Shown: positions 13,450-54,661 of the stretch, piece by piece | How the letters are laid out: each line of letters begins with the position of its first letter | Position numbering within the stretch: position 1 is the first letter of the stretch | Source of the DNA: Pseudonocardiales bacterium | GTDB lineage: Bacteria; Actinomycetota; Actinomycetes; Mycobacteriales; Pseudonocardiaceae | DNA length: 64,000 bases | Direction of reading: 5' to 3' | NCBI GenBank assembly: GCA_019241525.1 | Contig: JAFAWY010000060.1 | Location: 1 to 64,000 of the forward strand | Notes under the pieces: generated by a model | Seen by the model: the letters and a program-made list of their open reading frames with translations, nothing else | Database searches by the model: none | What the model was told of the DNA's origin: nothing | Program-made: the position numbers and the translations under genes

Positions 13450-13530
13450 ACAGCACTGTTCAGCGAGAACTGATGTCAACTGTGGATGTCAGAGCTGGGG
13501 CAGTGATCTCTGCACCATCCTGAGTTGCTG

Positions 13531-14813: not shown

Positions 14814-14819
14814 CGCCAT

Positions 14820-15475: not shown

Positions 15476-15489
15476 ACGGATCAAGTGTG

Positions 15490-22686: not shown

Positions 22687-22696
22687 GGCCCGGGTT

Positions 22697-26425: not shown

Positions 26426-26453
26426 CGATTGGGTTGAAAGCTGGGGGGCAGCC

Positions 26454-28056: not shown

Positions 28057-28222
28057 TCCCGTGTGTCGTGCTCTCATGCCCGGCGTGTCGTGCTGCTGTG
28101 CACATTCAGGCTCAAGTTGAGGTCGGATATGTCCGGCGAGATAGCCCAGCGTAGGGTAAATGTGACGCAGAGGATCCGGTTCGTCGCACTCAGTGCCCGA
28201 AGGTGAACAGGGGTAATCCACG

Positions 28223-39193: not shown

Positions 39194-40408
39194 TCACCCG
39201 GTTGGTGCGACTCTCAGGACCTGATCGTTGTCGCCATTGCTGGTGGTGACATACAGCGCGCCGTCGCCCCCCACGCGCACGGCACGCAGCCGGCCGTAGT
39301 TGCCGTCAAGCTGCGGCAGCTGGCCTACTTCCGTCACCGCACCGATCGGGTCAACCCTCATCAGCAGCAACTTGGTGCCCTTGAGCGCGGCGACCGCGAG
39401 CAGACCCTGCATGCTGCCCCACTGGGCTCCAGTGATGAACGCGGCCCCGCAGATCGCTTCAGTGTCCCGGCCGGAGCTCCATACCGCGGGCACCGCGTCG
39501 GGAAAGCGCTGCTGGTCGGTCATCGGCACGCTCTCGTCGTAGCTGGTTTGCGTGCCACCTCGAGATGGGTCCCAGCCGTAGTTGGCTCCAGCACGCAGCA
39601 AGTTGATCTCGTCGTTGACGTCCGGGCCGTGCTCCGTACCGAGCAGCCGGCCCGTTCCGGGCTCCACCGTCACGCCCTGCACGTTGCGGTTGCCGTAGGT
39701 GAACACCAGCCGTTCGGCAGCGTTAGGTGAACCGGCGAAAGGGTTGCCGGGCGCGGGACCCCCGGTGCCCAGGTCGATGCGCAGCACCTTGCCACCGAGC
39801 TGAGTGCGGTCCTGAGACACCGCGGCCATCGCGGAATCTCCGGTACCGACGTAGAGGTAGCCGTCCGGGCCCAGGGTCGGGCGACACCCGGAGTGCCGGC
39901 CAGAGGGATTCAGGGTGAGGCCGGCGACCAACGGGTCAGCCACCCGGCGGGCGCGCGCACCGTCCGCTGACAGCTCCCACGTCACCAGCCGGACGTCCAC
40001 CGGCTGGCCCCGATGCTGATAGGTCTGGCAGGTGGTGAACCGGCGACTGTCCGTGAAATCAGGATGCACCACCAGCCCCATCAGGCCGCCTTCTCCTCTG
40101 ACGTACACATCATCGAGGTCAGCCGCGACTTCGGTAATCCGCGCACCGGGCCTGGTGGACGACAGCAGCTTGATCCGCGCCGGACGCTCAGTGACCAGTG
40201 CCGCACCGCTGGGCAGGAACCCGATATCCCACGCGTGCTCCAGCCCGGCAGCCACCACGCCCACCCGGATGTCCGGGGCCGCCGGGTTCGGCGACGGCCC
40301 AGCGCGACCACCGGTCGGCACTCCGGAACCGACGGGGGCGCTCGGACCGCCGTTCGAGCAGCCAACGATCAGCCCGAACAGCACTAGCAATGCCGGCAAG
40401 CGAGGCAT
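39194..40408 (-). CDS. PQQ-type soluble glucose/sorbosone dehydrogenase-like lipoprotein
   Basis: A 404-residue protein. The signal peptide ends in LIVGCSN, a lipobox that places it on the outer face of the membrane. The body is a six-bladed GDSH propeller: AWDIGFLPSGAALVTERPAR, GEGGLMGLVVHPDF, NPSGRHSGCRPTLGPDGYLYVGTGD, GKVLRIDLGTG, FTYGNRNVQGV and LGTEHGPDVNDEINLL. These are the blocks that bind PQQ and calcium in soluble aldose dehydrogenases. It may oxidise an exposed sugar end. The start codon overlaps the previous stop by one base, so it is the last gene of the minus-strand operon. Confidence 0.9.
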   Translation of the reverse strand: MPRLPALLVLFGLIVGCSNGGPSAPVGSGVPTGGRAGPSPNPAAPDIRVGVVAAGLEHAWDIGFLPSGAALVTERPARIKLLSSTRPGARITEVAADLDDVYVRGEGGLMGLVVHPDFTDSRRFTTCQTYQHRGQPVDVRLVTWELSADGARARRVADPLVAGLTLNPSGRHSGCRPTLGPDGYLYVGTGDSAMAAVSQDRTQLGGKVLRIDLGTGGPAPGNPFAGSPNAAERLVFTYGNRNVQGVTVEPGTGRLLGTEHGPDVNDEINLLRAGANYGWDPSRGGTQTSYDESVPMTDQQRFPDAVPAVWSSGRDTEAICGAAFITGAQWGSMQGLLAVAALKGTKLLLMRVDPIGAVTEVGQLPQLDGNYGRLRAVRVGGDGALYVTTSNGDNDQVLRVAPTG

Positions 40409-41079
40409 CAGCTGGAATCAGCTACCGGTCGCAAACCCGCGGCGCGGGCGACGCTGACCGCCTCCAAGCGGCTGCGCACGCCCAGTTTGGTGAGGATGCT
40501 GCGCACGTGCGTGCGGACCGTACTCATCGACACCACTGACTCCACAGCGATCTGGCTGACCGGCTTGCCGTCCACCATACGCAGCAGTACCTCGCGCTCA
40601 CGGTGGCTGAGGACATCGAGCCGGGCGCTGCAGTCGCGGGCGCGCTGTACGTCGTCGCGCAGCTCCCGCAACACCACGCCGAGCTGTTCCGGCGGGTAGA
40701 AGGCGTGACCGAGCGGCACCCCACGCAACACTTCCAGCAGATGCTCCAGGGAGCTCTCCTTGGACACCCACGCCGACGCGCCGGCCCGGGCCGCGGCCAC
40801 GGCGTGGTCGCTGTGGTGGCTTGCGGTCAGCACCACCAGCCGGGCCGGGGGCCAGGCAGCCTGTAGTTTGCGCAGCAACCCCCCCGTGGCAACCGCCGCG
40901 GATCCGATTTCGGTGGTGATCACATCCGGGCGCTGGGTGCGGACGACGTCCATCAGGCGCGGATCGTCCGGACTGGTGCTCCCGACCACCCACAGATCGT
41001 CCACACTCGACAACCGGACAGTCAGCGCATCGGTCAACATCGCGTGACTGTCGATGAGGAGAATCCGCAGGAACGGCAC
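40408..41079 (-). CDS. LuxR/NarL-type response regulator lacking the phospho-Asp (Glu instead)
   Basis: A 223-residue protein. The receiver fold is clear: RILLIDS (residues 5-11), PDVITTEIG (51-59), LVVLTAS (81-87) and AWVSKES (103-109). Where the phosphorylated aspartate should be, residue 57 is Glu. The conserved Thr (85) and Lys (107) are present. The C-terminal LuxR helix-turn-helix (LSHREREVLLRMVDGKPVSQ, MSTVRTHVRSILTKLGVRSR) is intact. GTG 41079 is the start that best fits the fold. It overlaps the lipoprotein gene by one base and follows the GT2 gene by 74 bases. It probably regulates the operon by a non-phosphorylation route. Confidence 0.88.
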   Translation of the reverse strand: MPFLRILLIDSHAMLTDALTVRLSSVDDLWVVGSTSPDDPRLMDVVRTQRPDVITTEIGSAAVATGGLLRKLQAAWPPARLVVLTASHHSDHAVAAARAGASAWVSKESSLEHLLEVLRGVPLGHAFYPPEQLGVVLRELRDDVQRARDCSARLDVLSHREREVLLRMVDGKPVSQIAVESVVSMSTVRTHVRSILTKLGVRSRLEAVSVARAAGLRPVADSS

Positions 41080-41153: not shown

Positions 41154-42512
41154 TCACTCCACCCACTCCACCGACTTCGGGGCCGGGGCGGTCACCGCCG
41201 CCGATACGGCCACCCGTCCAGCAAGCGCCGGGCGTTCCAGGACGGTCCGCCGGGCCGGGCTGGTCCACCTGCCTGTCGAGCTCAGCCAAGCCTTCGGGAA
41301 CACGTACAGCGCCACTGCAGCATCGAGCACCCGCAGGAACGGGAAGAAAATCCACAACGCCACGAAGCGCAGCTTGCGTTCGATCACCGCGACCAGGCAG
41401 GTCAGCGCGAGATCGGCACCGGTCACCGCCAGCAACAGCACCCGCAGGTTCATGTGCTCGGCCACATCGGTGTGCACCGTCGCCAGTCCAGGCCAGCTGA
41501 GTGCCTCGGGATAGACCGCGGGCACGGCCAGCATGACGACCAGCAATGGCAGCAGCACGAAGAACATGCTGCTGGTCAGCAGTTCCAGCAGCAGCACCGT
41601 GAGCATCGCACTGAACAGGGTCAACCGTGGCGGATGGCGGCGCACCGTCTGCCACAGCCCCAATCCCCAGCGCTTGATCTGGCGGATGTAGTCGCGCAGA
41701 TTGTCGGGATCCTGGGTCACCGCGACGGCACCCAGCGTGAACGCCACCTTTCCCAGCCGCTTGGCATAGACCTCGAACGTCATATTGAAGTCCTCGATCA
41801 CCAACCCGGGCGGGTTCATCTCGATATACGGCAGCACCGATGTGCGGTACATGCTGGCGAACCCTGGCACGATATGCGTCGCATTGGTGAACCGCCAGGT
41901 CTGGCCGTATTTCAGCAAGCGCTGGCTGATCGCATAAATGCGCTGCCGGTGGCATACCAGCACCTTGCCGATCAACGACAGACCACGCTCGTGCCGGGTG
42001 CGTACCGCGCCGGCCACCGCGACCACTTTGGGGTCGTCAAAAAACGGCAGGGCAGCGTCGAAATATCCCGGCTGGATCGCGGTGTCGGCATCGAGCAGCA
42101 GCACCGCGCGGAACCGATCGACCAGGTCGAAACGGTCGATCGCCTCCTCCAGAGCACCCGCTTTGCCGACATTGGTACGGGTGGAGATGACGTTGACCCC
42201 GGCTTGCTGCGCCAGTTCCACGGTCCGGTCGGTAGAGCCGTCCGAAACGACGTGGATGTTACAGCGGGGAACCAGCGCCGCGATTGCCTCGATACTGTCT
42301 TTGATCACCAGCTCTTCGTTATGGGCCGGAATCAGTACCGCCACATCCTGTACGGTGATCGAGGGCTCAACGCCATACCCGCGTTGTTGCAGCTTTTTCC
42401 GCAGGCTCCTTTTTCGCCAGGTCTCTTCGATCAGCCGCGCCAGGCCAATCGCTGCCCACACGGTGAAATTGACCCCGAATACGATGAGCGCAATAGGCCA
42501 CCAGGACATCAC
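41154..42512 (-). CDS. processive membrane GT2 glycosyltransferase (IcaA/PgaC-like synthase)
   Basis: A 452-residue protein. Membrane helices lie at about 5-24, then a GT-A domain with VLIPAHNEE (59-67), VVSDGSTD (88-95), LLLDADTA (138-145), the acid pair in VIEDFNMTFE (238-247), and the processive Q-x-x-R-W motif in QIKRW (278-282). Further helices follow at about 298-400. This is the synthase-type layout that both polymerises and exports a beta-linked polysaccharide. A poly-GlcNAc-like product is suggested by the deacetylase and GH18 genes in the same operon. It overlaps the GH18 gene by four bases (ATGA). Confidence 0.93.
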   Translation of the reverse strand: MMSWWPIALIVFGVNFTVWAAIGLARLIEETWRKRSLRKKLQQRGYGVEPSITVQDVAVLIPAHNEELVIKDSIEAIAALVPRCNIHVVSDGSTDRTVELAQQAGVNVISTRTNVGKAGALEEAIDRFDLVDRFRAVLLLDADTAIQPGYFDAALPFFDDPKVVAVAGAVRTRHERGLSLIGKVLVCHRQRIYAISQRLLKYGQTWRFTNATHIVPGFASMYRTSVLPYIEMNPPGLVIEDFNMTFEVYAKRLGKVAFTLGAVAVTQDPDNLRDYIRQIKRWGLGLWQTVRRHPPRLTLFSAMLTVLLLELLTSSMFFVLLPLLVVMLAVPAVYPEALSWPGLATVHTDVAEHMNLRVLLLAVTGADLALTCLVAVIERKLRFVALWIFFPFLRVLDAAVALYVFPKAWLSSTGRWTSPARRTVLERPALAGRVAVSAAVTAPAPKSVEWVE

Positions 42513-43678
42513 CGGGACGTCCCTTCACCACTTGACGTTGGGTGCAACGGGATGATCTTGCGCACGGTCGCCCAGGTCCGGTCGTCCTCAGAGCTGATCA
42601 TCCACAGGTAAACCCCGCGGATGCCGGCGGCCTTGGCGGCCTGGAGCTTGAGCGCGGTGCTGTCGGCGTTTTCGAACCAGACTTCGTGCTGCCGCCCTTG
42701 CTCGTCGGTGTACTTGAACGACGGTGACTCGCTGAGGCGGTCGTACTGCACGGTGGCGTGATATTTACTGGTGCGTCCATAGGATTGGATCCAGGTGACC
42801 ACCTCGCCTTTGCCGTCTACCCAGTCGTAGCCGGACAGCGGCACACCGAGCACGATCTTGTCCGCGGGCATCTGGCTTTTGGCGTAGGTCAGCACGTCGC
42901 GGACCCAGGGCATCGGCGCGACCGGTCCCGGTGGTGACTCCGACCAGTGGTAGTCGTAGGCCATCAGCCGGACCTCGTCGGCCGCCGCACCGATGGCCGC
43001 GTAGTCCTGCCCGGCGTTGCGCTGGTCCTCACCGGCGTCGCTGGTCTTGGCGAACAAGGCAACCGTCAGGACCTTGCCCTTGTCGTGCAAGGCGCTGGCC
43101 AGGTCGGTGATGAACGAGGTGAACACTTGCCGGTCAGTGGCCGGGAGGTCTTCGTAGTCGATGTCGATCCCGGCGTAGTTCTCCCGCTGTACCAGCGCGA
43201 CGATGTCGTTGATGTGCCGGCTCATCGCGGCGGGATCGTGCAGGATGTCCGCGAGTGGTTCGTAGGCCCACTGGCCGTTGGTCCGGTTCGCGATCGACGG
43301 GACCACCGGGATGCCCAGCTTGCGTAGCCGGTCCATACCGTCCCGGGTCTGGGCGGTCACCTCGGGTGCTTGCGCAACGATCCGGCCGTTACGGGCCAGC
43401 CCGTAGATCCACGGGGATACCTCATTGAACGTCCCTGGATTGGTCGCCAGGATGTTCGGGCCTTCGGTCAGGTTCCAGAACGGCAGGGAGGCCACCACCA
43501 GGGTGGCGGGTTTGTCTCCGGAACCCAGCATCCGCGGCACTGTGACCAGCAACGCCACCGCGCCGAGGAACAGCACGATGAGGAACGCCGATCCGCCCAG
43601 CAAGCGCAACCTCAGGGAGCGCCGCCCTCCCGGGCTGGGGACGTCCGGGCGGCGTGGCTCGATGCTGGTCTTGGTCAT
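42509..43678 (-). CDS. membrane-anchored GH18-family glycoside hydrolase
   Basis: A 389-residue protein. A short cytoplasmic part and a membrane helix at about 29-49 anchor an extracytoplasmic GH18 barrel. The catalytic D-x-D-x-E lies in GIDIDYEDL (residues 170-178), with the acid at Glu176. VRLMAYDYHWSES and GVPLSGYDWV are further barrel motifs, and GVYLWMISSED ends the barrel, as in YaaH/SleL-like spore and wall hydrolases. It may trim or release the polymer made by the GT2 synthase. Its stop and start overlap both neighbours by one to four bases. Confidence 0.9.
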   Translation of the reverse strand: MTKTSIEPRRPDVPSPGGRRSLRLRLLGGSAFLIVLFLGAVALLVTVPRMLGSGDKPATLVVASLPFWNLTEGPNILATNPGTFNEVSPWIYGLARNGRIVAQAPEVTAQTRDGMDRLRKLGIPVVPSIANRTNGQWAYEPLADILHDPAAMSRHINDIVALVQRENYAGIDIDYEDLPATDRQVFTSFITDLASALHDKGKVLTVALFAKTSDAGEDQRNAGQDYAAIGAAADEVRLMAYDYHWSESPPGPVAPMPWVRDVLTYAKSQMPADKIVLGVPLSGYDWVDGKGEVVTWIQSYGRTSKYHATVQYDRLSESPSFKYTDEQGRQHEVWFENADSTALKLQAAKAAGIRGVYLWMISSEDDRTWATVRKIIPLHPTSSGEGTSR

Positions 43679-44664
43679 CAGCCCACCACTGCGGGGCTCA
43701 GTCCAGGCCGGCTACGTTCCGCGATCACCGACCGCAAGATGTCATCGAGTGTGCGGGTCGGCCGGAAACCGATCAGCTCGCGAGCCCGGGAACAATCCGG
43801 CACCCGGCGTTGCAGGTCCTCGTATCCCGGACCGATGCCTTCCTCGTAGGACATCTGCACGATGCCGCTGGCCGAACCGGTCAGCGCCAGTACGCGGTGG
43901 GCCAGCTCGCGGATGGACACCTGCTCGGAGCTGCCGACGTTGACCGCGGTGCCATACGCCTCGGGGTGTTCCACGAGCGCGACCAGCGCGGGGACGACGT
44001 CCAGCACGTGGCAGAAGCAGCGCACTTGCTCGCCGGTCCCGAACACCGTCAGCGGCTCGCCGGCCAAGGCCTGGGTCACGAACCGGGGGATCACCATGCC
44101 GTAGCGCCCACTTTGGCGGGGCCCCACCGTGTTGAACAGCCGCACGATCACCGCGCGCAGGCCGAGCTCGGTGACATAGGCGCGGGTGAGGCTCTCGTCG
44201 ACAGCCTTCGCCTCGGAGTACGACCAGCGGTGCAGCAGCGGCGAACCGATCACCCGGTCGTCGTCTTCGCGCAACCCGATCTTGGTGTTCTTCCCGTAGA
44301 TCTCGCTGCTGGACGCGATGAGCACCCGGGCTTCGTGCCGGTGCGCCGCGGCCAGGACGTGCTCGGTGCCGTGGATGTTGGTGCGCAGGCTGGCCAGCGT
44401 GCGATCCCGGATGACGAACGAACCCACGGCCGCGGCGAGGTGGAAGATCGTGTCGACCTGGCCGGCGAGCGTGTCGACCAGTTCCTCGTCGAGCACCGAA
44501 CCGGAGACGTAGCGCAGCCGGGGATGGTCGCTGACTGCAGACAGGTTGTCCAGCGAGCCGGTGGCCAGGTTGTCCAGCGCGACGACCTCATGGCCGCCGG
44601 CCAGCAGGTGTTCCGCCAGGTGCGAGCCGATGAAGCCGGCCCCGCCGGTGATCAGTGCTTTCAT
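43678..44664 (-). CDS. NAD-dependent nucleotide-sugar epimerase/dehydratase
   Basis: A 328-residue extended SDR. KALITGGAGFIGSHLAEHLL is the NAD loop, HLAAAVGSF follows, IASSSEIYGK has the catalytic serine region, and WSYSEAKAVDE is the Y-x3-K pair. FNTVGPRQSGRYGMVIPRFV and VFGTGEQVRCFCHVLDVV are typical of the UDP-glucuronate decarboxylase and UDP-glucose 4-epimerase group. With a nucleotide-sugar dehydrogenase in the same operon, a UDP-xylose-type or epimerised uronic acid product is possible. The exact reaction cannot be read from the sequence. Confidence 0.88.
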   Translation of the reverse strand: MKALITGGAGFIGSHLAEHLLAGGHEVVALDNLATGSLDNLSAVSDHPRLRYVSGSVLDEELVDTLAGQVDTIFHLAAAVGSFVIRDRTLASLRTNIHGTEHVLAAAHRHEARVLIASSSEIYGKNTKIGLREDDDRVIGSPLLHRWSYSEAKAVDESLTRAYVTELGLRAVIVRLFNTVGPRQSGRYGMVIPRFVTQALAGEPLTVFGTGEQVRCFCHVLDVVPALVALVEHPEAYGTAVNVGSSEQVSIRELAHRVLALTGSASGIVQMSYEEGIGPGYEDLQRRVPDCSRARELIGFRPTRTLDDILRSVIAERSRPGLSPAVVG

Positions 44665-45803
44665 CAGTTTCCTCCTACCGGGTTGGCCAGCACGCGGCCG
44701 TTGTGCCGGGCGCGGCTGCGGGCAGCCATCAGCCGCTCGTAGAGGTCGTCGATGCGGCGGGTGACCGCCTCGATGCCGTACTGCTCGCGGATAGCCGGAA
44801 CGCCCTGGCGCGGCCGGCGACCTTGAGCGATCTCCGCCGCGATCTCCCGGCGCATCTCCTCGACCTCACCGGGGATCTGGCGGGCGCGGTCGGTCTCGAT
44901 GCCCTCCAGCGCCGGGCAGGTCGTGTACAGCGCTGGTATCCCGTTGGCCAGCGCCTCCAGCACCGACAGCCCGAAGGTCTCCTGCTCCGAGGCCGCGATG
45001 AACAGATCCAGCGACGAGAGCATGGCGGCCACGTCGTGCCGCTCCCCGGCGAAGGTGACCAGCTCCGCGACGCCCTGGCGAGCCGCCTCGGCCTCCAGAT
45101 CAGGCCGGATCTGCCCGTCACCGACGATCAACAGCCGGTGCTGGTCGTCGAGCAACGGTGCTGCGGCCCTGATCACCAGGTCAAAGCGCTTGATCGGGTC
45201 GAGCCGGCCCAGCACGCCGACGACGAAGGCGTCGCGAGGCAAGTCGAACTCGGCGCGGATGGTGTCCCGCGCGGTGGCGTCGAAGGCCACCCGGTCGAAG
45301 TCCAGACCATTGGGGATGGTCTCGATCTTGCGGGCCGGTACGCCCCATTTGGTCAACCGGTGCGCCACCGCGTCGGAGACCGCGATGGTGGCGTCCGAGC
45401 ACAGGTCTGTGCCCAGGTATAGGGCGCGCACCCCGAGGGTCATCCGGCGCCGTTCCAGGTGTGTCTCGCCGATGGAGTGCTCGGTGGTCACCACCACTGG
45501 TGTGCCGGCCAGCCGGGCCGCGATCCGCCCGTAGACGCAGGAGCGATACAGGTGGGTGTGCACCACGTCGTACCGGCCGGCTCGGATCAGCCTGGTCAGC
45601 CGTCCTAATGCGGGCAGCTCGGTGTTGCTGGTCATGCCCAGGTCGCGCACCCGCCCGCCGTCTCCGACGATCATGTCGGCGACCGGGCCGGGGTTGTACA
45701 GCGTCACGACGTCGGACTGATGGCGGGTGTGTTGCAGGATCGAGCGCAGCTGCAGCTCGGCTCCTCCCACGCCCAACCCGGTGATCACGTGAAGAACTCT
45801 CAC
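44664..45803 (-). CDS. GT4-family glycosyltransferase
   Basis: About 379 residues. The N-terminus VRVLHVITGLGVGGAELQLR carries the GG-A-E acceptor-domain loop of GT4 enzymes. The donor domain has VVGVLGRLDPIKRFDLVI, LLIVGDGQIRPDLE and the E-x7-E motif in ASEQETFGLSVLEALANGIP. GTG 45803 was chosen over the longer frame because GGGGGGAAG precedes it and it overlaps the previous stop as GTGA. It adds a sugar to the lipid-linked intermediate on the inner face. Confidence 0.92.
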   Translation of the reverse strand: MRVLHVITGLGVGGAELQLRSILQHTRHQSDVVTLYNPGPVADMIVGDGGRVRDLGMTSNTELPALGRLTRLIRAGRYDVVHTHLYRSCVYGRIAARLAGTPVVVTTEHSIGETHLERRRMTLGVRALYLGTDLCSDATIAVSDAVAHRLTKWGVPARKIETIPNGLDFDRVAFDATARDTIRAEFDLPRDAFVVGVLGRLDPIKRFDLVIRAAAPLLDDQHRLLIVGDGQIRPDLEAEAARQGVAELVTFAGERHDVAAMLSSLDLFIAASEQETFGLSVLEALANGIPALYTTCPALEGIETDRARQIPGEVEEMRREIAAEIAQGRRPRQGVPAIREQYGIEAVTRRIDDLYERLMAARSRARHNGRVLANPVGGN

Positions 45804-47158
45804 TTTCTTCCCCCCAGAAAAGGCGTAGTTGTCGTGCCCAGGGTGCGGACCAAGATCACCGCATCCATCCACGGTGACCAGTGCTCGATGTAGAAGTTGT
45901 CCAGCCGGCTGCGCTGGGCGATGCAGGTGTCGCCGTGCAGCCCGTTGACCTGGGCCCAGCCGGTGAGTCCGGACCGCATTCGATGCCGGTCGGCATACCG
46001 TGGGATCTGCTGCGCGAAGCGCGCCGCGAAATACGGCCGCTCGGGCCGTGGTCCCACCAGGGACATGTCACCGCGCAGCACGTTGAACAATTGAGGAAGC
46101 TCGTCGAGATGCGTGGTGCGCAACCACCGACCCAACCGGGTGGTCTGCTCAGGCAGCACCACCCAGCGGGTGTCCGGATCCGGGTGGTCGACCATCGAGC
46201 GCAGCTTGAGCAGCTCCATTGTCTTGCCGCCCTGGGTCACCCGGGTTTGTCGGAACAGCGCGGGCCCGCGGCCGTCCAGGCGGACCGCAAGCGCCAGCGT
46301 GAGCAGCACCGGGGCCAGGGCGACCAGCAACGCTGCTGCACCGACGACGTCGAAGGTGGCCTTGGCGGCCATGCCGAGCCGGCTGTGTCCCAGCCGGCGC
46401 AGCGGGATGAGCGGGATGTCTCCCAACTCGTCGAGGTAACCGCGGGGGAGTGCGGCACCGAGCTCGAAAAGCCGCGGCACCACGCACACGTCCACCGGCA
46501 GCTCCCGGCAGGCCCGCAGCAGCGGCACCAGGTCAACGTCCCGACCGGCCGGGAAGCACACGATGATCCGCTGGATGCCGTGCTGCGCGATCACCCCGGG
46601 CAGCTCGGCCGGCTCGCCGAGCACTGGTAGGTCCGCTGGTTCCGACGGGGGCCGGCTGTCCACGAATCCCTGTGGGGTCAGCCCGAGTTCCGGGTGGTCG
46701 CGCAGCAGCTGCGCGACCCGGACCGCGGTGGCGCCGGTGCCGACGACGAGCGTGGGTTCGTGCCACCGTCCCCGCCGGTGAGCGACTCTCAGCGCGGTGC
46801 ACACGCCCATGCGCACCGCGACCAGCACCACCACGCAGCTCAGCACCAGCGCCAGCCCAGGACCAGCGCCCACCCACGGCAGCAGCCCAACCAGCGGCAG
46901 CGCCGCAACCGCCACGGTGCGCGGCAGCTGGTCAGCCACCCGCCGGCAAATCCGCAGCCGGTGTTGCCCGTCGGCGACCAGCAATACCAGTACCGCGCAG
47001 GCGTACGCGCTCGCTCCCCACCTCAACCCGGTGGTCATCAGACACGCGGCGGTGAGACCAGCGACATCCGCCAGCGGCAGGATGGCCGGCAGCAGCGCTG
47101 CGGGCGCAAGCCGGCGGAGCCGCCAGCCGAGGCAGGGGGCGAGCAGCGAGGTCGTCAC
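45800..47158 (-). CDS. priming glycosyl-1-phosphate transferase
   Basis: A 452-residue protein. Several hydrophobic segments lie in the first 110 residues, a nucleotide-fold domain (EPTLVVGTGATAVRVAQLLR, IIVCFPAGRDVD) follows, and then the catalytic sugar transferase domain. In the last part are [63 protein letters not shown] and YIEHWSPWMD. The G-W-A-Q-V-N-G form is the CpsE/EpsL-like variant. It is the third priming enzyme in this window and belongs to the minus-strand operon, overlapping the next gene by four bases. Confidence 0.93.
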   Translation of the reverse strand: MTTSLLAPCLGWRLRRLAPAALLPAILPLADVAGLTAACLMTTGLRWGASAYACAVLVLLVADGQHRLRICRRVADQLPRTVAVAALPLVGLLPWVGAGPGLALVLSCVVVLVAVRMGVCTALRVAHRRGRWHEPTLVVGTGATAVRVAQLLRDHPELGLTPQGFVDSRPPSEPADLPVLGEPAELPGVIAQHGIQRIIVCFPAGRDVDLVPLLRACRELPVDVCVVPRLFELGAALPRGYLDELGDIPLIPLRRLGHSRLGMAAKATFDVVGAAALLVALAPVLLTLALAVRLDGRGPALFRQTRVTQGGKTMELLKLRSMVDHPDPDTRWVVLPEQTTRLGRWLRTTHLDELPQLFNVLRGDMSLVGPRPERPYFAARFAQQIPRYADRHRMRSGLTGWAQVNGLHGDTCIAQRSRLDNFYIEHWSPWMDAVILVRTLGTTTTPFLGGRK

Positions 47159-48408
47159 CCGCGGGCTCCGACGGCGGCACGCGGCTTCGGCATGGTGGTG
47201 GTCAGTGCCCGGGTGACCGTCCGTGCGGCGTAGTCGGAACCGCAGACAAATCGCATGACTGGGCCGAAGGTGGGTGCTACCGCGGGACCGATGAAGTACA
47301 GGCCCGGCACCGTGGATTGGAAGTCTGGTCCGACGTCGGGAGTGCTGGCCAGGGTTCGCACCTTGGCCCGCAGGCCGTCGTCCAGGAAGGTCAGCCGTTC
47401 CAGGTTGGCGCGGTAACCGGTGGCGGACAGCACATGATCAACGGTGATCTCCCTGGTGGTCGCGTCGGCGGCGCGCAAGCCGAGCCGTACGGCGCCATCC
47501 TCGGCTGCCGCCCACCGCACCGTGTGGCCGAGCAGCGTGCGGAACTTGCCCTCCACCCGAGGGCGCAGCCACGGCGCACCGGCCGGCCCGAGCGCGGTCC
47601 GGGCGGTGTGGATCCGCCGGGCGGCCGGCAGATGCCGGTACAGGTGCGGCTGGGTGGAGTAGAACCAGGTGCCCCATCCGGAACCGAGGGTGGCCTCGGG
47701 CTCGCGCAGCTTCCGCAGCAGTGACCGCTGCGCGGGCAGCGGTTCGCCGTTCCACATCAGCTTCGAGGTGCGGGCGATCACGGTGACGCGGGCGCCGGAT
47801 TCGTGCAGCAGCGCGGCGGATTCCAGGGCGGACTGCCCGGCGCCGACGACGGCGACCTCGCGGCCGGCGAACACGCCAAGGTTGTCGTGCGCGCTGGGAT
47901 GGGTGCACACCCGCGCCGGCAGCTCAGCCAGGGTGGCGGGCATGTACGGGAAATGCTGCACCCCGGTGGCCACGACGACCGTGCGGGCCCGGGCCACGGT
48001 GCCGTCGGACAGGCTCAACACATATTGCTCGCCTGCCGGGGTCAGATCCCTGGTGACGTCGAGGACCATCAGCTCTTCCAGGTTCGGTACCTCGGCGCGG
48101 CGGAACCACTCCCCGTAGGCCACGAACGTCTCCAGCGACACCGGTAGCCCGTAGTCGGCATACTCCCGGCCGGTGGACGCGCAGAACGCGCGCAAGGTGT
48201 GCCGGCCGGCAGGATCGGACAGGTTGGACGCGAATCCCTGCGACTTGAGGTACATGCCGGCCGGCATCGCCTCTCGCCACAACTGCATCGGCAGCCCGAA
48301 CTGGCGGAATGGCACGCCCGCGGCGCCCAGGTGCGCGCCGAGCGACAGGCCGTACGGGCCGGCGCCCACGATCGCAACGTCAACTGGATCTTCAATGCCG
48401 TGTGTCAT
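47155..48408 (-). CDS. FAD-dependent oxidoreductase (flavin monooxygenase-like)
   Basis: About 417 residues. A first FAD-binding Rossmann motif VDVAIVGAGPYGLSLGAHLG is at the N-terminus. A second, NAD(P)H-binding type motif REVAVVGAGQSALESAALLH lies near the middle. VVVATGVQHFPYMP and VLSATGYRANL are the conserved A-T-G blocks of two-dinucleotide-domain flavin monooxygenases. It most resembles N- or Baeyer-Villiger-type oxygenases, but the substrate is unknown. ATG 48408 follows GGAGG by about 8 bases and overlaps the ATP-grasp stop as ATGA. It sits with an ATP-grasp ligase in a glycan operon, hinting at a modified amino acid or amino sugar. Confidence 0.82.
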   Translation of the reverse strand: MTHGIEDPVDVAIVGAGPYGLSLGAHLGAAGVPFRQFGLPMQLWREAMPAGMYLKSQGFASNLSDPAGRHTLRAFCASTGREYADYGLPVSLETFVAYGEWFRRAEVPNLEELMVLDVTRDLTPAGEQYVLSLSDGTVARARTVVVATGVQHFPYMPATLAELPARVCTHPSAHDNLGVFAGREVAVVGAGQSALESAALLHESGARVTVIARTSKLMWNGEPLPAQRSLLRKLREPEATLGSGWGTWFYSTQPHLYRHLPAARRIHTARTALGPAGAPWLRPRVEGKFRTLLGHTVRWAAAEDGAVRLGLRAADATTREITVDHVLSATGYRANLERLTFLDDGLRAKVRTLASTPDVGPDFQSTVPGLYFIGPAVAPTFGPVMRFVCGSDYAARTVTRALTTTMPKPRAAVGARG

Positions 48409-49673
48409 GCCAGGGTCCTCCGTGCCGGTAGTGGTGTGGTGATGGGTCGGCGAGTGCCACGCCGGGCCAGTGGGCGGGTGAGGGCCCGCCATCCCATGCG
48501 CAGGCACATCAACCCAAACGGTGCAAGATCGTCTCGAGCGAACCAGGCCAGCTCGTCAGCCCGGCGCAGTGAGGCCACCCAGGACTTCAGATCCAGACCG
48601 AGGCGCCGGTAGGCCAGCGCCGCAATCGGGTCGTAGTTCTCCACCAGGAAGCTGCGGCCCAGGTGGGGGGACCCGAGCGGGATCTGCCGGCCGGTCAGGT
48701 CCAGATGCGCCGCGACCACCACGTCGACGCCCGCGCTGTCAGAAAACAGCCGGAACTGCGCACCCAGCCGGGGGTTGAAGTCCAGCAGCTTGTAGGTGCC
48801 CGTGCGGGGGTCGAACCGGTAATCGAGGTCGACGATGCCCCGGAAGCCCACGCACGCGAGCAGCTCGCTGGCCTGCTCGTGCAGGGCAGGGTTGTCCACC
48901 CAGCGACCGAGGCTGGTCAGCCCGGCCTGTGCCGGATAGGAGCGCTCCTTGCTCCCGACAAAACCGGGCCGGCAGCGTGACTGGGTGTCGCAGTAGGCGT
49001 GAAAGAAGTAATCCCACCCCTTGACGTACTCCTGCAGCATCAACGCACCGCTGCCGGACTCCTCGCACGCCCGCCAGATCTGGGTGAGGTCGTCGTGGGT
49101 GCGGATGACCGTGGTGCTGCGCAGTTTCTTGGCACCTTTGGACTGCCACGGCGTGGCCAGCTTGGCCACCAGCGGGAAGCCGCTCTGCTCGGCGAAACGC
49201 CGGGCGTCGCGCAGAGTGCCGGGTAGTGCGGCGGCCGCACAGGGCACGCCCAGCTCGCGGCACCGCTGGTACAGCGTGTACTTGCCAGCCAGCTGGCGCG
49301 GCAGGCCGGCGGGAGGATCGGAGAACAGAAAATATTGACGTAGGTCGCTGCCATGCTCGGCGAGGAAGATGGCGCCGGCGTCGTCGGTGGGGATGAGCAC
49401 CGACCGGCGGCCGATCCGCTTGGCGAGCGTGACCAGCCCGGTGCGCACCCGGTGGACATCGTCAGGTTCCGGCCGCCAGATCCACCGCCCCCGCAGGTAG
49501 CGCGACCGCGCCGCGGGTGCCAGCGGGTCCTCGTGCACGCCATATACCGGCACGCCCAGGCGTCCCAGGCTGCGGATCGCGCCGAGCCCGCCATGGTGCA
49601 TGACGTTGTGGTCGAGCTTGAGAATGACTGCCGGTGTGTTGGTGTCCAGCGTTGGACGCGGGTGATGAGGCAT
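48405..49673 (-). CDS. ATP-grasp carboxylate-amine ligase-like protein
   Basis: A 422-residue ATP-grasp protein. AVILKLDHNVMHHGGLGAIRSLGRLGVPV begins the N-terminal domain. KYTLYQRCRELGVPCAA and PLVAKLATPWQ form the ATP-binding lobe, LMLQEYVKGWDYFFH follows, and IVDLDYRFDPRTGTYKLLDFNPRLGAQF contains the magnesium-binding D-x-N-P-R cluster. ATP-grasp ligases join a carboxylate to an amine through an acyl phosphate. It may attach an amino acid to a glycan amino sugar or uronic acid, but this is inference. It lies 14 bases downstream of the sugar-dehydrogenase gene. Confidence 0.85.
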   Translation of the reverse strand: MPHHPRPTLDTNTPAVILKLDHNVMHHGGLGAIRSLGRLGVPVYGVHEDPLAPAARSRYLRGRWIWRPEPDDVHRVRTGLVTLAKRIGRRSVLIPTDDAGAIFLAEHGSDLRQYFLFSDPPAGLPRQLAGKYTLYQRCRELGVPCAAAALPGTLRDARRFAEQSGFPLVAKLATPWQSKGAKKLRSTTVIRTHDDLTQIWRACEESGSGALMLQEYVKGWDYFFHAYCDTQSRCRPGFVGSKERSYPAQAGLTSLGRWVDNPALHEQASELLACVGFRGIVDLDYRFDPRTGTYKLLDFNPRLGAQFRLFSDSAGVDVVVAAHLDLTGRQIPLGSPHLGRSFLVENYDPIAALAYRRLGLDLKSWVASLRRADELAWFARDDLAPFGLMCLRMGWRALTRPLARRGTRRPITTPLPARRTLA

Positions 49674-49687
49674 CGACGTTTCCGTCC

Positions 49688-51058
49688 TCAGACCACGCTG
49701 CGATGGGGGACGGCGTCGAACAGGTAGGTCGCGTCGAGTACCTGGGGACAGTCCTCGACCCAGCGGTAATCCGTGGCCGGGTGCACCACCTGGATGATCG
49801 CCAGGTCCCAGGCGGCGCCGCTGGGCACGGGGGTGTTACTCAGCACGCGGCCCTGGCGCGTCGTCATGGTCGGCACCAGCGGGTCGTAATAGGCGACCTC
49901 GGCGCCACGCTCGATCAGCCAGTCGATCAGCAGCAGCGCCGGAGCTTCCCGCACATCGCTGACGCCGGCCTTGTAGCTGACCCCGACCACGATCACCTTG
50001 GCGCCGTCCAGCGAACGGCCTGCAGCGGTGAGCACCTCGGCGGCGCGCTCAACGACGCGGGCTGGTCGCGCGTGGATGGACTGCATCGCCTGCTTGAGCA
50101 GTGGGGTAGGCGCCATGGCATCGCGTAGCTGCCACAGCAGGTAGTGCGGGTCGCACGGGATGCAGTGCCCACCGACTCCCGGGCCGGGGAACGCGGCGAG
50201 GAAACCGTAGGGCTTGGTCCCGGCCGCCAGGGTCACCTCGATCGGGTCCAGCCCCAGGGTGGCGCACACATCACCGAACTCGTTGGCCAGCGCCAGGGTG
50301 ACCGCGCGGAAGATGTTCTCGTACAGCTTGGTCAGCTCGGCCGCCTCCGGGGAACTCACCAGGTAGACCGTGTCGGTCATCGCGCCGATCACCCGCGCGG
50401 CCTGCAGGCTGCAGTTTCTCGACACCCCGCCCACCACCCGGGGTGTCTCGCGCTGGACATGGTCGGGATTGCCGGGATCGATGCGCTCCGGGCTGAATGC
50501 GACGTAGACGTCGGTGCCCACGGTTAGGCCGCGCTGGTGCAGCGGTTCGACCAGCAGCTGGCGGGTGGTGCCCACGAAACTGGTCGACGTGAGGATGATC
50601 GTCTGTCCCGGATGGGCGTGCGCCACGACGGTCTGGCACGCGCTGCGCAGGGCGACGAGATCCGGGACATGGTCCTCGTCCACCGGGGTGGGCACGCAGA
50701 TGATCACCGCGTTGGCCGTGGACAGTGCACTGGCGTCAGTGGTCAGCTGGAAGCTGGTGTCGTTGCGTGCCTTGTCCAGCAGCGCTCGGTCCGACTCACA
50801 GAGATCAACCTCTCCGGACTTGATATCGCGCAGGCGGTCCTCGCTGATGTCGTAGCCGGTGATCTCAGCGGCCCCGCCGAGCAGAGCCAACGCCGTGGGC
50901 AGTCCGACGTATCCGAGGCCCACGATCGCGACTGCTCCCAGCTTTGGTCGCCCGGTTCCGGTGCCCGGCTGTGCCTCCGGTGGGCTAAAAGGAACGAGAC
51001 GTCGCTCGTAGAGCCGCTCACGTCCATTGATTGCAAGCGAAAGCCGCTGCTGCGCCAC
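49688..51058 (-). CDS. UDP-sugar 6-dehydrogenase (UDP-GlcNAc/ManNAc/Glc type)
   Basis: A 456-residue protein of the UDP-glucose/GDP-mannose dehydrogenase family. GAVAIVGLGYVGLPTALAL is the NAD loop, VICVPTPVDEDHVPDL the C-terminal edge of the first domain, and FPGPGVGGHCIPCDPHY contains the catalytic cysteine. KVIVVGVSYKAGVSDVREAPALLL opens the last domain. It oxidises a nucleotide sugar at C6 to a uronic acid. WecC-like UDP-N-acetyl sugar dehydrogenases are the closest match in wording, so an amino-sugar uronate is plausible. The unusual N-terminal 40 residues suggest a later start is possible. Confidence 0.92.
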   Translation of the reverse strand: MAQQRLSLAINGRERLYERRLVPFSPPEAQPGTGTGRPKLGAVAIVGLGYVGLPTALALLGGAAEITGYDISEDRLRDIKSGEVDLCESDRALLDKARNDTSFQLTTDASALSTANAVIICVPTPVDEDHVPDLVALRSACQTVVAHAHPGQTIILTSTSFVGTTRQLLVEPLHQRGLTVGTDVYVAFSPERIDPGNPDHVQRETPRVVGGVSRNCSLQAARVIGAMTDTVYLVSSPEAAELTKLYENIFRAVTLALANEFGDVCATLGLDPIEVTLAAGTKPYGFLAAFPGPGVGGHCIPCDPHYLLWQLRDAMAPTPLLKQAMQSIHARPARVVERAAEVLTAAGRSLDGAKVIVVGVSYKAGVSDVREAPALLLIDWLIERGAEVAYYDPLVPTMTTRQGRVLSNTPVPSGAAWDLAIIQVVHPATDYRWVEDCPQVLDATYLFDAVPHRSVV

Positions 51059-51212
51059 TGTGTCCCCCGACCTGTGCTCTGTCCGCTACCGACAGTCGCA
51101 TCAGGCCGCCATGCGAGCCTCCGTCATAGGCGGTAGGTCACCTACGTCGTTCGACGGATCACGGTGTGTCGTGCGGGAAGTCGCCGGAACCGGGTGCGGT
51201 CACCAGCGCGCG

Positions 51213-51272
51213 CAGTCTGGATGCAGACTGCTGTTTTTTGGGCCTCAGAAACAGCAGTCTGCATCCAGACTG
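51213..51272. repeat. 60-base nested perfect palindrome
   Basis: Bases 51213-51236 and 51249-51272 are perfect inverted copies of each other (24 pairs) around a 12-base loop. Each arm also folds on itself: CAGTCTG, then GATG, then CAGACTG. The right arm encodes the last residues of the adjoining glycosyltransferase, whose stop is in the loop. Downstream on the coding strand there is no T-run, so it does not look like a standard intrinsic terminator. Confidence 0.85.
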
Positions 51273-52387
51273 CTGAAGGCTCGGCTGCGCGTGGGCAGTT
51301 CAGCGGTGACGGCGGCAAGTTGGTCGTGGGTGCGCCGGACATCGAATGCGCACGCGGCCTGGGCTGCGGCATGTCCTTCAGCGGCCCGCAGCTGTGGCTC
51401 GGCCAGGCGCCGAGCCACAGCACTGGCCAGGGCATTGGCGTCGCCAGCCGGGACCCGGACACCAACCCCGGTGCTGACCGCTTCGGCCAGGCCGGGGATG
51501 TCCGCGACCACCACGCAACACCCGCTGGCCAGCGCCTCCAGCAGGGTCAGTGACAAGCCTTCCCAGCGCGAAGGCAGCACCACCACGTCGGCTGCCGCAT
51601 ACCAGGGCCGCGGATCGGTGACCGGCGCAAGGAAATGCACGCCGGGCAGCGCACGGGCGCGCAACCTGGGCAGCGCCTCACCGTCGCCCACGATGCACAG
51701 CTGCGCTGCCGGGCATCGGGACCGCACCTGAGGCCACGCGGCGAGCAGCAGGTCCTGGCCCTTCTGCCGGGTGACCCGGCCCAGGCACACTGCCAGCGGC
51801 GCGTCCCGATCGACGCCCAGTCGCTGCCGGGCAGCGACCCGGGCCTGCGCGTCGCACGGCTTGAAGGCGGCCAGGTCCACCCCGTTGCGGATGACCAGGT
51901 GGCGGTTACCCACGCCCCGGTGGCGGGCATGAGCGGCCTCTCCCTCACCGACACAGACGAGCAGGTCCGTCCATCGGGCGGCGAGACGTTCCCAGGCCAG
52001 CGCGCCGCGCGCGGTGACACCCCGGGCGGCCAGCCAGGACCAGCCGTGAGGTTGGAACACCGTGGGACGGCGCCCGCGTACGGCGAGCCGTCCCGCCAAA
52101 CCCGCCTTTGCCGAATGCAGGTGCACCACGTCGGGCCACACCGTGCTGATCAGTTGGCGTAGCTGGCGGGTCTCAGGCACCGTGCCGAGGCTGGGCGCGC
52201 GGGTCGCAGGCCAGTGCAACCTCGGTATGCCGCGCGCGGCCAAGGCAGCGGCGAGCTGACCCCCGGGTGGGCACGCCACGGCAACCCGCCATCCCCGGGC
52301 GAGCTGATCAGCGGCCACCCCGACGACATAGGTGGCGACCCCGGCCTCGGTGGGCTGGGCCGCGTGCAACACGCTGAGTCCCGTCAT
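51245..52387 (-). CDS. GT4-family glycosyltransferase
   Basis: About 380 residues. The N-terminus MTGLSVLHAAQPTEAGVATY starts the acceptor domain and PDVVHLHSAKAGLAGRL follows. The donor domain has LAVCLGRVTRQKGQDLLLAA, LCIVGDGEALPRL and VVLPSRWEGLSLTLLEALASG, with the E-x7-E motif. ATG 52387 was chosen over the 52432 frame because it overlaps the deacetylase stop as TGATG. The last nine residues are encoded by one arm of the 60-base palindrome, which may mean that the element captured the gene end. Confidence 0.9.
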   Translation of the reverse strand: MTGLSVLHAAQPTEAGVATYVVGVAADQLARGWRVAVACPPGGQLAAALAARGIPRLHWPATRAPSLGTVPETRQLRQLISTVWPDVVHLHSAKAGLAGRLAVRGRRPTVFQPHGWSWLAARGVTARGALAWERLAARWTDLLVCVGEGEAAHARHRGVGNRHLVIRNGVDLAAFKPCDAQARVAARQRLGVDRDAPLAVCLGRVTRQKGQDLLLAAWPQVRSRCPAAQLCIVGDGEALPRLRARALPGVHFLAPVTDPRPWYAAADVVVLPSRWEGLSLTLLEALASGCCVVVADIPGLAEAVSTGVGVRVPAGDANALASAVARRLAEPQLRAAEGHAAAQAACAFDVRRTHDQLAAVTAELPTRSRAFSSLDADCCF

Positions 52388-53157
52388 CAGTGCGAATAGC
52401 GCAAACATTCTCGGTAGCGCCGCCGGTACCACTTGGCGCGCAACCGAAGCGGGCCGTCTCGATCACCCACGTAGATGCGCGGCAGTGCATGCACGCTGGT
52501 CAGCGGCGAGCGCCAGATGGCGCAACCGTACTGGTAGCCGGCAGCGCGTACAGCAGCCACAGCCAGCGCGTTGAGGTGCCCGTACGGGTAGCAGAAACCG
52601 ACGATCCGCTCTCCGGTCAGATCCTCCAAGATGGTTCGGCTCTCCGAAACCTCACCAATGAGATCGCAGGGTGAAGTCAGGGACGTCAGGGAAACATGCC
52701 TTCTGGAATGCGAACCGATCTCCATCCCGAGCTGCGCCACGTGACGGATCTGGTCAACGGTCATCAGGGGTTTGCGCGGTCCGGCTGCATCCCACTTGTT
52801 CGATTCGCCCAGCAGGTCGGCGATCACGAACACCGTCGCGGTGAAACCAAAGCGGGCCAGCGCGGGCAACACGTGCTCGATGAAGTCGGCGTAGCCGTCG
52901 TCGAAGGTGAGCCCGACCAGACCCCGGTCGACGCCGGCACGCCGGGCCGCTAGCAGCTCCCGCATCGAGGTGCCCCGCAATCCGCGCCGATGCAGCCAAC
53001 GCAGCTGCTGGGTAAACCGGGCGGGGTGCACGGTGACCAGGTACGGATCATGTTCGTACGGGGCCACCGAGTGATACATCAACACCGGCGGCAGCGGACC
53101 GTCCCCGTACTGGTTCGGGAACTTGTCCGGGCGGATGTGCGGGATCGCTTCGCTCAT
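52387..53157 (-). CDS. NodB-type polysaccharide deacetylase
   Basis: About 256 residues. VLMYHSVAP begins the NodB fold, VGLTFDDGYADFIEHVLP carries the D-D metal-binding pair, MEIGSHSRRHVSLTSL the H-x3-H pair, and VGFCYPYGHLN the R/Y-P-Y-G block. It removes N- or O-acetyl groups from polysaccharide using a divalent metal. No signal peptide is evident, so its location is unclear. ATG 53157 starts at the fold; the open frame from 53406 runs through the upstream regulator region in a non-coding sense. It is one of the first enzymes of the operon, consistent with a deacetylated GlcNAc-type polymer. Confidence 0.9.
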   Translation of the reverse strand: MSEAIPHIRPDKFPNQYGDGPLPPVLMYHSVAPYEHDPYLVTVHPARFTQQLRWLHRRGLRGTSMRELLAARRAGVDRGLVGLTFDDGYADFIEHVLPALARFGFTATVFVIADLLGESNKWDAAGPRKPLMTVDQIRHVAQLGMEIGSHSRRHVSLTSLTSPCDLIGEVSESRTILEDLTGERIVGFCYPYGHLNALAVAAVRAAGYQYGCAIWRSPLTSVHALPRIYVGDRDGPLRLRAKWYRRRYRECLRYSH

Positions 53158-53171: not shown

Positions 53172-53936
53172 CTACGGTCCGGCCCGTAAGAGGGGCTCCT
53201 GCGCCGGGATGGCGATCGGTACGTTCGTTGCAGGAGGCAGGAACTGGCGTTCCTGGCGCAGCGCCTCGCGTGCCATCGCCACGGCCTCGAGCCGGCTGTG
53301 CACGCCCAGCTTCGCGAAGATCTTGTTCGCGTGGGTTCGCACGGTGTGTGCCGATACCCCGAGCTCGGCGGCGATCTCGGCCGCGCCGCGGCCCCGCGCG
53401 AGGCACACCAGGACGTCGCGCTCCCGAGGGGTGAGCACCTCCAGCGGTCCGTCACGGCGCTGCGCGCGCCCGACATCGGCCCGCAATTCTTCGAGCACGC
53501 GGCCTAGCTGTTCGGGAGGGAAGCAGGCCTGTCCTTGGCTGGCGCAGCGCAGCGCCTGGGTGAGAACGTCGATGGAGGACTCTTTCGAGACCCAGCCATC
53601 AGCCCCCGCCCGCGCTGCCTCGACCGCCTGGTCAGGATCCCGGCTGGCGGTGAGTACCACAAATCGGGCCGGGGGCCAGGCGGCGCGGAACGTGGCGAGC
53701 AGCGCGGTGGCAGCGCGGGCTTGGGCGACCTCGATGGTGATGACATCTGGGCGCAGCGCGGCGGCGAGCCCTCCGGGGTCGGGATCGCGCATCGTGCAGT
53801 GCCCGACTACCACGATGTCGGGTTCCGTCGAGAGCTTGGCCGCGAGCGCCTCGATGAGCATCTGCTGGTCGTCGACCAGCAATACTCGCACCGGGATCAC
53901 ACCGCGCACCGTGCTTAGCGGCTTGGTCCCTACCAC
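53172..53936 (-). CDS. LuxR/NarL-type response regulator lacking the phospho-Asp (Glu instead)
   Basis: A 254-residue protein. The receiver domain keeps the acid pair VLLVDDQ (18-24), VVLTAS with Thr96 and GWVSKES with Lys118. At the phosphorylation site PDVITIEVA, residue 69 is Glu rather than Asp. The LuxR-type helix-turn-helix (LTPRERDVLVCLARGRG, SAHTVRTHANKIFAKLGVHS) is intact. It is very like the regulator at 40408-41079, notably AWPPAR, VVLTAS and VSKESS, so the two look like paralogues. It lies 14 bases upstream of the deacetylase gene and two bases after another regulator. Confidence 0.9.
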   Translation of the reverse strand: MVGTKPLSTVRGVIPVRVLLVDDQQMLIEALAAKLSTEPDIVVVGHCTMRDPDPGGLAAALRPDVITIEVAQARAATALLATFRAAWPPARFVVLTASRDPDQAVEAARAGADGWVSKESSIDVLTQALRCASQGQACFPPEQLGRVLEELRADVGRAQRRDGPLEVLTPRERDVLVCLARGRGAAEIAAELGVSAHTVRTHANKIFAKLGVHSRLEAVAMAREALRQERQFLPPATNVPIAIPAQEPLLRAGP

Positions 53937-53938
53937 GG

Positions 53939-54661
53939 CTACCCCGTTCTCGTGCGGCTCTCCGCGCCATGCTGGTCGTGGTCGACGAGGTCGTAGCGCA
54001 CTGCGAAGGTGGCAGCCTCGAGCCGGGAGTGCACCCCGAGTTTGGTCAGCAGTGCCTGCACGTGACTTCGTACGGTCGTGGTCGATACGCCGAGCCGCAG
54101 TGTCATGGCGGGGGTGTCGAGCCCTTCAACGAGCAGTGCCAGGCATTCTCGCTCCCGAGCGGTGAGGTGAGCGGCCAGCCGGCGAGCCTCGGAGACGTCG
54201 GATCGTGCCGAACTTGCGCGGGGTGCGTCCAGGACCACCGCGCCGTCCATAATCCGCTCCAGCGTGTGCACCAATTTGCGGACACCACAAGTCTTGTGCA
54301 GGTAACCAGCAGCGCCCAATCGCACGGCCTGGCGCATCGCTTCGGCATCGCGGTCTTCGGCAAGGATGAGTGCCCGGGTCGCCGGACTCACCGCACTAAT
54401 ACGGCTGATCGCGCTGACGCCGTCACCATCGGAAAATCGTCGGGCTAGTAAGCACACAGTGGGCTGGTGATGACGCGTCGCCTCGATTGTTCCGGCCAGG
54501 CTTCGGGCCACCGCCGGTACCCGGAATCCGTGGCTGGTCAGTACCGGTACCAGCGACTCCACAAACACCGTGTGATCGTCGCCGAGTACAATACTTTTTG
54601 TGTCGGGTCGACCGGATTGTCCGGATCCGCACGTCCCCCCGGCGGCCGTCAATATCCCCAC
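53939..54661 (-). CDS. LuxR/NarL-type response regulator with no acid at the phospho-Asp site
   Basis: A 240-residue protein. The receiver keeps the acid pair SIVLGDDH (23-30) and Lys123 in YLHKTC. At the phospho-acceptor position the sequence PTVCLLARRFSDGDG has Ala73 where Asp is normal, and the conserved Thr is Ala101. The C-terminal LuxR domain (LTARERECLALLVEGLD, STTTVRSHVQALLTKLGVHS) is complete. It is the first gene of the minus-strand operon, transcribed away from mfd. It cannot be phosphorylated at the normal site, so it probably works constitutively or by another signal. Confidence 0.9.
   Translation of the reverse strand: MGILTAAGGTCGSGQSGRPDTKSIVLGDDHTVFVESLVPVLTSHGFRVPAVARSLAGTIEATRHHQPTVCLLARRFSDGDGVSAISRISAVSPATRALILAEDRDAEAMRQAVRLGAAGYLHKTCGVRKLVHTLERIMDGAVVLDAPRASSARSDVSEARRLAAHLTARERECLALLVEGLDTPAMTLRLGVSTTTVRSHVQALLTKLGVHSRLEAATFAVRYDLVDHDQHGAESRTRTG

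Follow-up and report, generated by a model that had tools for sequence, protein, structure and literature searches.

Bacterial exopolysaccharides are usually classed as synthase-dependent or Wzx/Wzy-dependent, and an operon in a 64,000-nucleotide stretch of a Pseudonocardiales bacterium (contig JAFAWY010000060.1; the window) raises the question of how enzymes of both classes come to be encoded together. The window's open reading frames and Pfam matches place 10 biosynthetic genes on the minus strand, from the ATG start of a NodB-type deacetylase gene at 53157 down to the end of a family 2 glycosyltransferase gene (GT2) at 41154, in the order NodB, GT4a, UgdH, ATPg, FAD, PGT, GT4b, EPI (a short-chain dehydrogenase/reductase, SDR), GH18 and GT2. 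An earlier note on this DNA had taken GT2, NodB and GH18 for the functional trio of poly-N-acetylglucosamine (poly-GlcNAc) production and had assigned the remaining genes to lipid-linked assembly. Every enzyme class that it named is present and confirmed by Pfam or NCBIfam, although it missed the ATP-grasp ligase, the FAD oxidoreductase and the LuxR-type regulators. Its proposal of a synthase pathway combined with a lipid-linked one in the operon is also supported, since the two form modules that are found apart in other genomes. We consider it fairly probable that the operon unites two polysaccharide modules, each of which also exists independently: a core that would make a polymer and a cassette that would make a decorated lipid-linked sugar.

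Most of the genes are joined by start–stop overlaps, as the note had observed. The overlaps are of 1 or 4 bases at seven junctions (NodB/GT4a, ATPg/FAD, FAD/PGT, PGT/GT4b, GT4b/EPI, EPI/GH18 and GH18/GT2), and larger gaps separate GT4a from UgdH (about 186 bases) and UgdH from ATPg (14 bases). LuxR-type response regulators bracket the operon at 53172-54661 upstream and at about 40408-41079 downstream. Two further genomes of the same family retain the block, and the series NodB-UgdH-ATPg-FAD-PGT-GT4b-EPI-GH18-GT2-RR3, ending in the downstream regulator, recurs whole or mostly and in nearly the same order in Saccharopolyspora, Actinopolyspora, Halopolyspora, Actinomycetospora and several metagenome-assembled genomes (MAGs). 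Because the order is kept in Saccharopolyspora, Actinopolyspora and others, the grouping of these genes is not due to chance. By synteny, GT4a occupies its position only in near relatives and Actinomycetospora and is therefore accessory.

A GT2-alignment scan of the named genomes yielded 80 related loci, and the gene-content counts are based on the 63 that are longer than 20 kb. UgdH and EPI lie near GT2 in 57/63 of these loci, and GH18 does so in 38/63. ATPg, FAD, PGT and GT4b are all present in 26/63 and all absent from 37/63, with no mixed locus. The cassette NodB accompanies them in 22 of the 26 cassette loci and is found in none of the 37 others; in the four cassette loci without it the sequence begins less than 3 kb upstream of UgdH, and NodB may be cut off. 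The core is therefore UgdH-EPI-(GH18)-GT2, with the dehydrogenase and the SDR belonging to the synthase rather than to lipid-linked assembly, where the note had placed them. The cassette is made up of ATPg, FAD, PGT, GT4b and a signal-less NodB, which belongs to the lipid-linked set and not with GT2. The proposed trio thus comes apart in one of its members, since in relatives NodB is encoded apart from GT2 and GH18, which for the most part remain linked. We observe this two-module structure directly in the gene content, and the family assignments and motifs given below are likewise observed. Cassette gene order is rearranged in three loci (L036, L064 and L071), where the content is complete. 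A GT2 homologue in genome G132 (L025) was set aside on account of a degenerate ED motif.

Each module also exists without the other. In a genome-wide search for ATPg, nine sampled genomes gave strong matches; all belong to one genus, probably Streptomyces, and in six loci of this genus the cassette genes are mixed with genes for a MurJ-type Wzx, Wzy, a Wzz-like protein, a GNAT protein and a GH26-like secreted enzyme. The cassette genes of one such locus, L139, are 42-54% identical to those of the window. No close GT2 was found in the probable Streptomyces cassette genomes, which gave only matches with E about 1e-20 to 1e-28, mostly to much longer frames. Core-only loci occur in Amycolatopsis, Modestobacter, Arthrobacter, Cryobacterium, Mycobacterium and others. 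Genome-wide searches of 11 core-only genomes revealed no ATPg orthologue; the sole match has an E value of 1.7e-25, whereas cassette genomes give 1e-210 or better. The reading of all ten genes as one co-adapted system was rejected, since either module occurs without the other.

The core enzymes point to a dedicated nucleotide-sugar pathway. The UgdH active-site motif GGHCIP is present in 65/66 orthologues, and the nearest solved relatives are UDP-N-acetylmannosamine dehydrogenases (4r16, Cap5O). On the GGHC-P motif and these relatives UgdH is a UDP-N-acetylhexosamine (UDP-HexNAc) 6-dehydrogenase of the WecC/Cap5O type, which scores above the TIGR03026 cut-off in NCBIfam and does not reach that of the WecC equivalog. 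The nearest solved relatives of EPI are UDP-glucuronate decarboxylases, and its Y-x-x-x-K and Arg align with the active site of human UXS1. Enzymes of these two families point to a route from UDP-HexNAc through UDP-HexNAc-uronate to a pentose, such as N-acetylxylosamine (XylNAc), or to an epimer. GT2 carries the motifs DGS, DAD, IED and QIKRW, and the combination of DxD, ED and QxxRW with transmembrane (TM) helices after the glycosyltransferase domain identifies it as a processive membrane synthase, in line with the earlier reading. GH18 has a single N-terminal TM segment at residue 29 and an intact DIDYE catalytic motif (D-x-D-x-E is conserved in most orthologues), and its nearest solved proteins are YdhD and YaaH/SleL. 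UgdH, EPI and GT2 are also found together on a plasmid of Mesorhizobium (with 37, 32 and 43% identity) and in a genome of Ca. Zambryskibacteria (Candidate Phyla Radiation), so the three proteins are likely to form a common pathway. UgdH would oxidise UDP-HexNAc to UDP-HexNAc-uronate, and EPI would convert this product either by decarboxylation to a pentose or by C4 epimerisation. GT2 would then polymerise the EPI product, possibly together with UDP-GlcNAc, and extrude the chain, which the membrane-anchored GH18 may trim or release outside the cell. The Vi antigen enzymes TviB and TviC likewise pair a UDP-HexNAc dehydrogenase with an SDR; the operon's SDR, however, resembles UDP-xylose synthase more than TviC, and the polymerase is a GT2 rather than the GT4 TviE.

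Like the poly-GlcNAc systems (pgaABCD, icaADBC and Streptomyces matAB), the operon encodes a GT2 that carries DAD and QxxRW, together with a glycoside hydrolase and a deacetylase of the CE4/NodB type. MatB is a fusion of GT2 with an extracellular CE4 domain (PMC5972031). PgaC/IcaA is also the top-scoring curated family for GT2, the top NCBIfam matches of NodB are PgaB-like, and the GH18 family mechanism requires an N-acetyl sugar. However, the GT2 score against the PgaC/IcaA model TIGR03937 is 84 bits, far below the equivalog cut-off of 422, and GT2 is about 25% identical to E. coli PgaC and S. hominis IcaA. NodB scores far below the cut-offs of the PgaB/IcaB models, lacks a signal peptide and accompanies the lipid-linked cassette rather than GT2. 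The hydrolase is a GH18 rather than a GH153 or GH20 and has no similarity to the PgaB hydrolase, no PgaD, IcaD or IcaC gene is found among the operon's reading frames, and UgdH and EPI accompany GT2 in other phyla. On the curated scores and the module structure we rejected the poly-GlcNAc assignment, and the operon is probably not the system it resembles. GT2 is not a PgaC/IcaA, UgdH is of HexNAc type and the SDR carries the motif of UDP-xylose synthases. The polymer is likelier to contain a uronate or pentose derived from HexNAc than to be poly-GlcNAc.

In the comparison of synthase clades that the note had proposed, GT2 falls outside PgaC/IcaA by the curated cut-off, and among the solved structures returned, none of them a PgaC, its AlphaFold model is closest to hyaluronan synthase (HAS), followed by cellulose and chitin synthases. 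The core resembles the systems of HAS and other GT2 synthases that build heteropolymers from a UDP-uronate, such as that of the type 3 pneumococcal capsule, in encoding a membrane GT2 with a nucleotide-sugar dehydrogenase. Unlike HAS, to which GT2 is about 16-18% identical, the core has a dehydrogenase of UDP-HexNAc rather than UDP-glucose type, and an SDR and GH18 in addition. A GT2 profile gave a 40-bit match to HAS, with 15-18% identity in the fold alignment, and therefore no clear membership of the HAS family, and a single-sequence phmmer search of GT2 against the PDB gave no match. GT2 represents what appears to be an uncharacterised synthase family that in several phyla is coupled with a nucleotide-sugar pathway of its own.

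In the cassette, PGT and GT4b are ordinary lipid-linked enzymes. The cassette NodB has no TM or signal segment, and the N-termini of its orthologues are alike; it is therefore likely to be cytoplasmic. Cytoplasmic deacetylation of lipid-linked HexNAc has been suggested for HfsH-type enzymes, and by analogy NodB likely acts on such a substrate. The AlphaFold model of ATPg matches ATP-grasp ligase folds, and the ATP-binding positions are conserved. In Actinomycetospora, ATPg and FAD form one open frame of 826-845 residues (L035:2770-5247 and L052:2617-5151), so that the two are functionally tied. PGT would load a sugar-1-phosphate onto undecaprenyl phosphate and GT4b would extend it; NodB would free an amine on the lipid-linked sugar and the ATPg/FAD pair would modify that sugar, plausibly by joining a carboxylate to the freed amine. 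We infer an amide at this position as the simplest reading for ATPg and FAD. The Caulobacter holdfast (Hfs) system likewise combines a PGT (HfsE) with a deacetylase (HfsH) whose proposed substrate is a lipid-linked GlcNAc precursor, and the operon gives weak matches to the HfsE and HfsH models; the scores are far below the cut-offs, however, and the operon has a GT2 core and no polymerase or flippase of the HfsC/HfsF type. Wzx/Wzy exopolysaccharide clusters with a PF02397 PGT are represented by the probable Streptomyces cluster, which has PGT, GT4, signal-less NodB, ATPg and FAD in common with the operon; the operon has a GT2 synthase core in place of Wzx, Wzy and Wzz.

No Wzx, Wzy or Wzz is encoded in the window operon. 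In the 10 kb around cassette-bearing loci outside the window's own group, no multi-TM gene resembling a flippase or Wzy was recognised, leaving aside a frame with 11 TM segments in L054 and one with 6 that covers the PGT in L060. Because the operon encodes no Wzx or Wzy, the lipid-linked unit would most simply prime, anchor or cap the chain made by GT2. We prefer this role to its main rival, in which the unit would be flipped and polymerised by Wzx and Wzy encoded elsewhere. More tentatively, GT2 may replace Wzx/Wzy altogether, extending and secreting a HexNAc-uronate- or XylNAc-containing chain on a decorated undecaprenyl-linked starter built by the cassette; if true, lipid-linked and synthase-dependent pathways would be joined in one polymer. 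The literature searched does not describe this operon, and in a 2020 survey of synthase-dependent exopolysaccharide operons the searched genus names and GH18 are absent (PMC7112194). The operon joins a complete synthase module to the lipid-linked half of a Wzx/Wzy-type pathway. Each module also exists alone, and strains that naturally carry the core, the cassette or both make it possible to ask whether a synthase can use a lipid-linked primer.

Several points weigh against a merger of cooperating modules. On the GT2 tree with midpoint rooting, the cassette was gained about once, nested among core-only lineages (L033 is labelled cassette-less on this tree though it carries the cassette), so that the counts of 26 and 37 loci reflect mostly joint inheritance rather than 26 independent events. 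The Glu of the STSE-YG motif of UDP-xylose synthases is conserved in 80/81 EPI orthologues, but this motif alone is insufficient to separate a decarboxylase from an epimerase or dehydratase. The proximity of GT2 to hyaluronan synthase is biased by the structure library, and the substrates, the composition of the polymer and the cooperation of the modules are predictions from gene families. In the sister MAGs L028-L032, the Wzx/Wzy/Wzz-like block found at 19.5-29.2 kb of the window lies directly downstream of the operon with its own PGT, and flipping in trans is therefore possible. Actinopolyspora has a Wzy cluster elsewhere in the genome. Two Actinopolyspora-like genomes encode a second MurJ that was a candidate for the missing flippase; it was rejected because, on inspection by eye, it adjoins MurT/GatD-like genes and no exopolysaccharide cluster. 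The Wzy of these two genomes lies in a different cluster with its own PGT.

The rival that survives best, though we regard it as unlikely, is a single Wzx/Wzy pathway in which all glycosyltransferases, a non-processive GT2 included, would build one lipid-linked repeat with the UgdH/EPI sugar, to be flipped and polymerised by proteins encoded elsewhere. The stand-alone cassette does accompany Wzx and Wzy, the block adjoining the operon in L028-L032 provides both, and the other strand of the window encodes a Wzx (22661-24310) and candidates for Wzy (8173-9537 and 24307-25785). However, GT2 has QxxRW, C-terminal TM helices and a predicted processive-synthase fold, and core-only loci have GT2 with no orthologue of PGT or the GT4 enzymes nearby. 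Moreover, no Wzx/Wzy was seen near the operon in Saccharopolyspora or Actinopolyspora, and the adjacent block has its own PGT. Rather improbable is a cell-wall glycopolymer resembling teichuronic acid, in which the cassette would make a lipid-linked linkage unit for extension by GT2 and the chain would be attached to peptidoglycan instead of released. An LCP-family gene beside the cassette in L139, a GH18 of the YdhD/SleL type known from peptidoglycan-acting enzymes, and the anionic character of a polymer that kept its uronate are consistent with this proposal, whereas the operon has no LCP gene and core-only loci lack linkage-unit genes. Least probable, on the scores and module membership given above, is that GT2, NodB and GH18 make and process a partially deacetylated poly-GlcNAc while the remaining genes form a second lipid-linked pathway using UgdH and EPI.

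Table. Genes of the operon and its flanking regulators in the window
Gene	Product	Coordinates	Strand	Basis and remarks
RR1	LuxR-type response regulator (receiver + GerE), phosphoacceptor position without Asp	53939..54661	-	Pfam, motif; homologues found beside many of the related loci
RR2	LuxR-type response regulator, with Glu in the phosphoacceptor position	53172..53936	-	Pfam, motif
NodB	NodB-type deacetylase without signal peptide, cassette	52387..53157	-	PF01522, TFDDG and HSRRH motifs, no TM segment
GT4a	Glycosyltransferase, variable accessory gene	51245..52387	-	Pfam, synteny
UgdH	UDP-HexNAc-type nucleotide-sugar 6-dehydrogenase, core	49688..51058	-	PF03721/00984/03720, TIGR03026, GGHCIP motif
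ATPg	ATP-grasp ligase, cassette	48405..49673	-	PF02786, conserved K, E and N-P-R positions, AlphaFold model
FAD	FAD-dependent oxidoreductase / monooxygenase-like, cassette	47155..48408	-	PF13738, PF07992, PF13434, alignment
PGT	Polyprenyl-phosphate sugar-1-phosphate transferase, cassette	45800..47158	-	PF02397 and CoA_binding_3; TIGR03025 above cut-off
GT4b	Glycosyltransferase, cassette	44664..45803	-	Pfam; about 48% identical orthologue adjoins NodB in stand-alone cassette L139
EPI	Extended SDR, UDP-uronate decarboxylase / epimerase-like, core	43678..44664	-	PF01370, nearest solved proteins, STSE[IV]YG-type motif
GH18	Hydrolase with single N-terminal TM anchor, core	42509..43678	-	PF00704 above cut-off, DIDYE motif, TM segment
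GT2	Membrane-embedded synthase with QxxRW, core	41154..42512	-	PF13641, motifs, AlphaFold model
RR3	LuxR-type response regulator immediately downstream of GT2; assignment of the start codon uncertain	40408..41079	-	Pfam; follows GT2 in most cassette-bearing loci

In place of the cassette, core-only loci mostly encode two secreted proteins: a NodB that may have a carbohydrate-binding domain, and a member of a family of about 310 residues that matches nothing in Pfam (L093:4305-5234, minus strand, with homologues in 31 loci). A search of the window's genome found neither the secreted deacetylase nor this family, which is weak evidence. The Arthrobacter loci are without GH18 and have instead a protein with no Pfam match whose FDFDLEG motif is reminiscent of GH18 (L094:115-1293, minus strand). 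A third locus form combines EPI, a PIG-L deacetylase, GT2 and GH18, in some cases with WbqC (L079, L087, L099, L105 and L103), and occurs in Jiangellaceae, Haloechinothrix and a gammaproteobacterial MAG. At 14-16.3 kb of L139, the stand-alone cassette adjoins chaplin-like genes and the LCP-family gene, and these neighbours suggest a role for it at the aerial or cell surface.

The usual phosphoacceptor Asp is absent from all three regulators, being replaced by Ala in RR1 and by Glu in RR2 and RR3; among RR3 orthologues, the position is Asp in 16 and Glu in 10. Elsewhere in the window, the Wzx/Wzy-type cluster at 19503-29197 on the plus strand encodes a Wzz-like protein, a MurJ-type flippase, a Wzy-like 9-TM protein, a PGT, DegT and GT28. 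A further polysaccharide cluster at 1-19000 includes Wzy_C (8173-9537) and a glycosyltransferase; it is mostly 52-64% G+C, compared with 65-72% for the operon, and was perhaps acquired.

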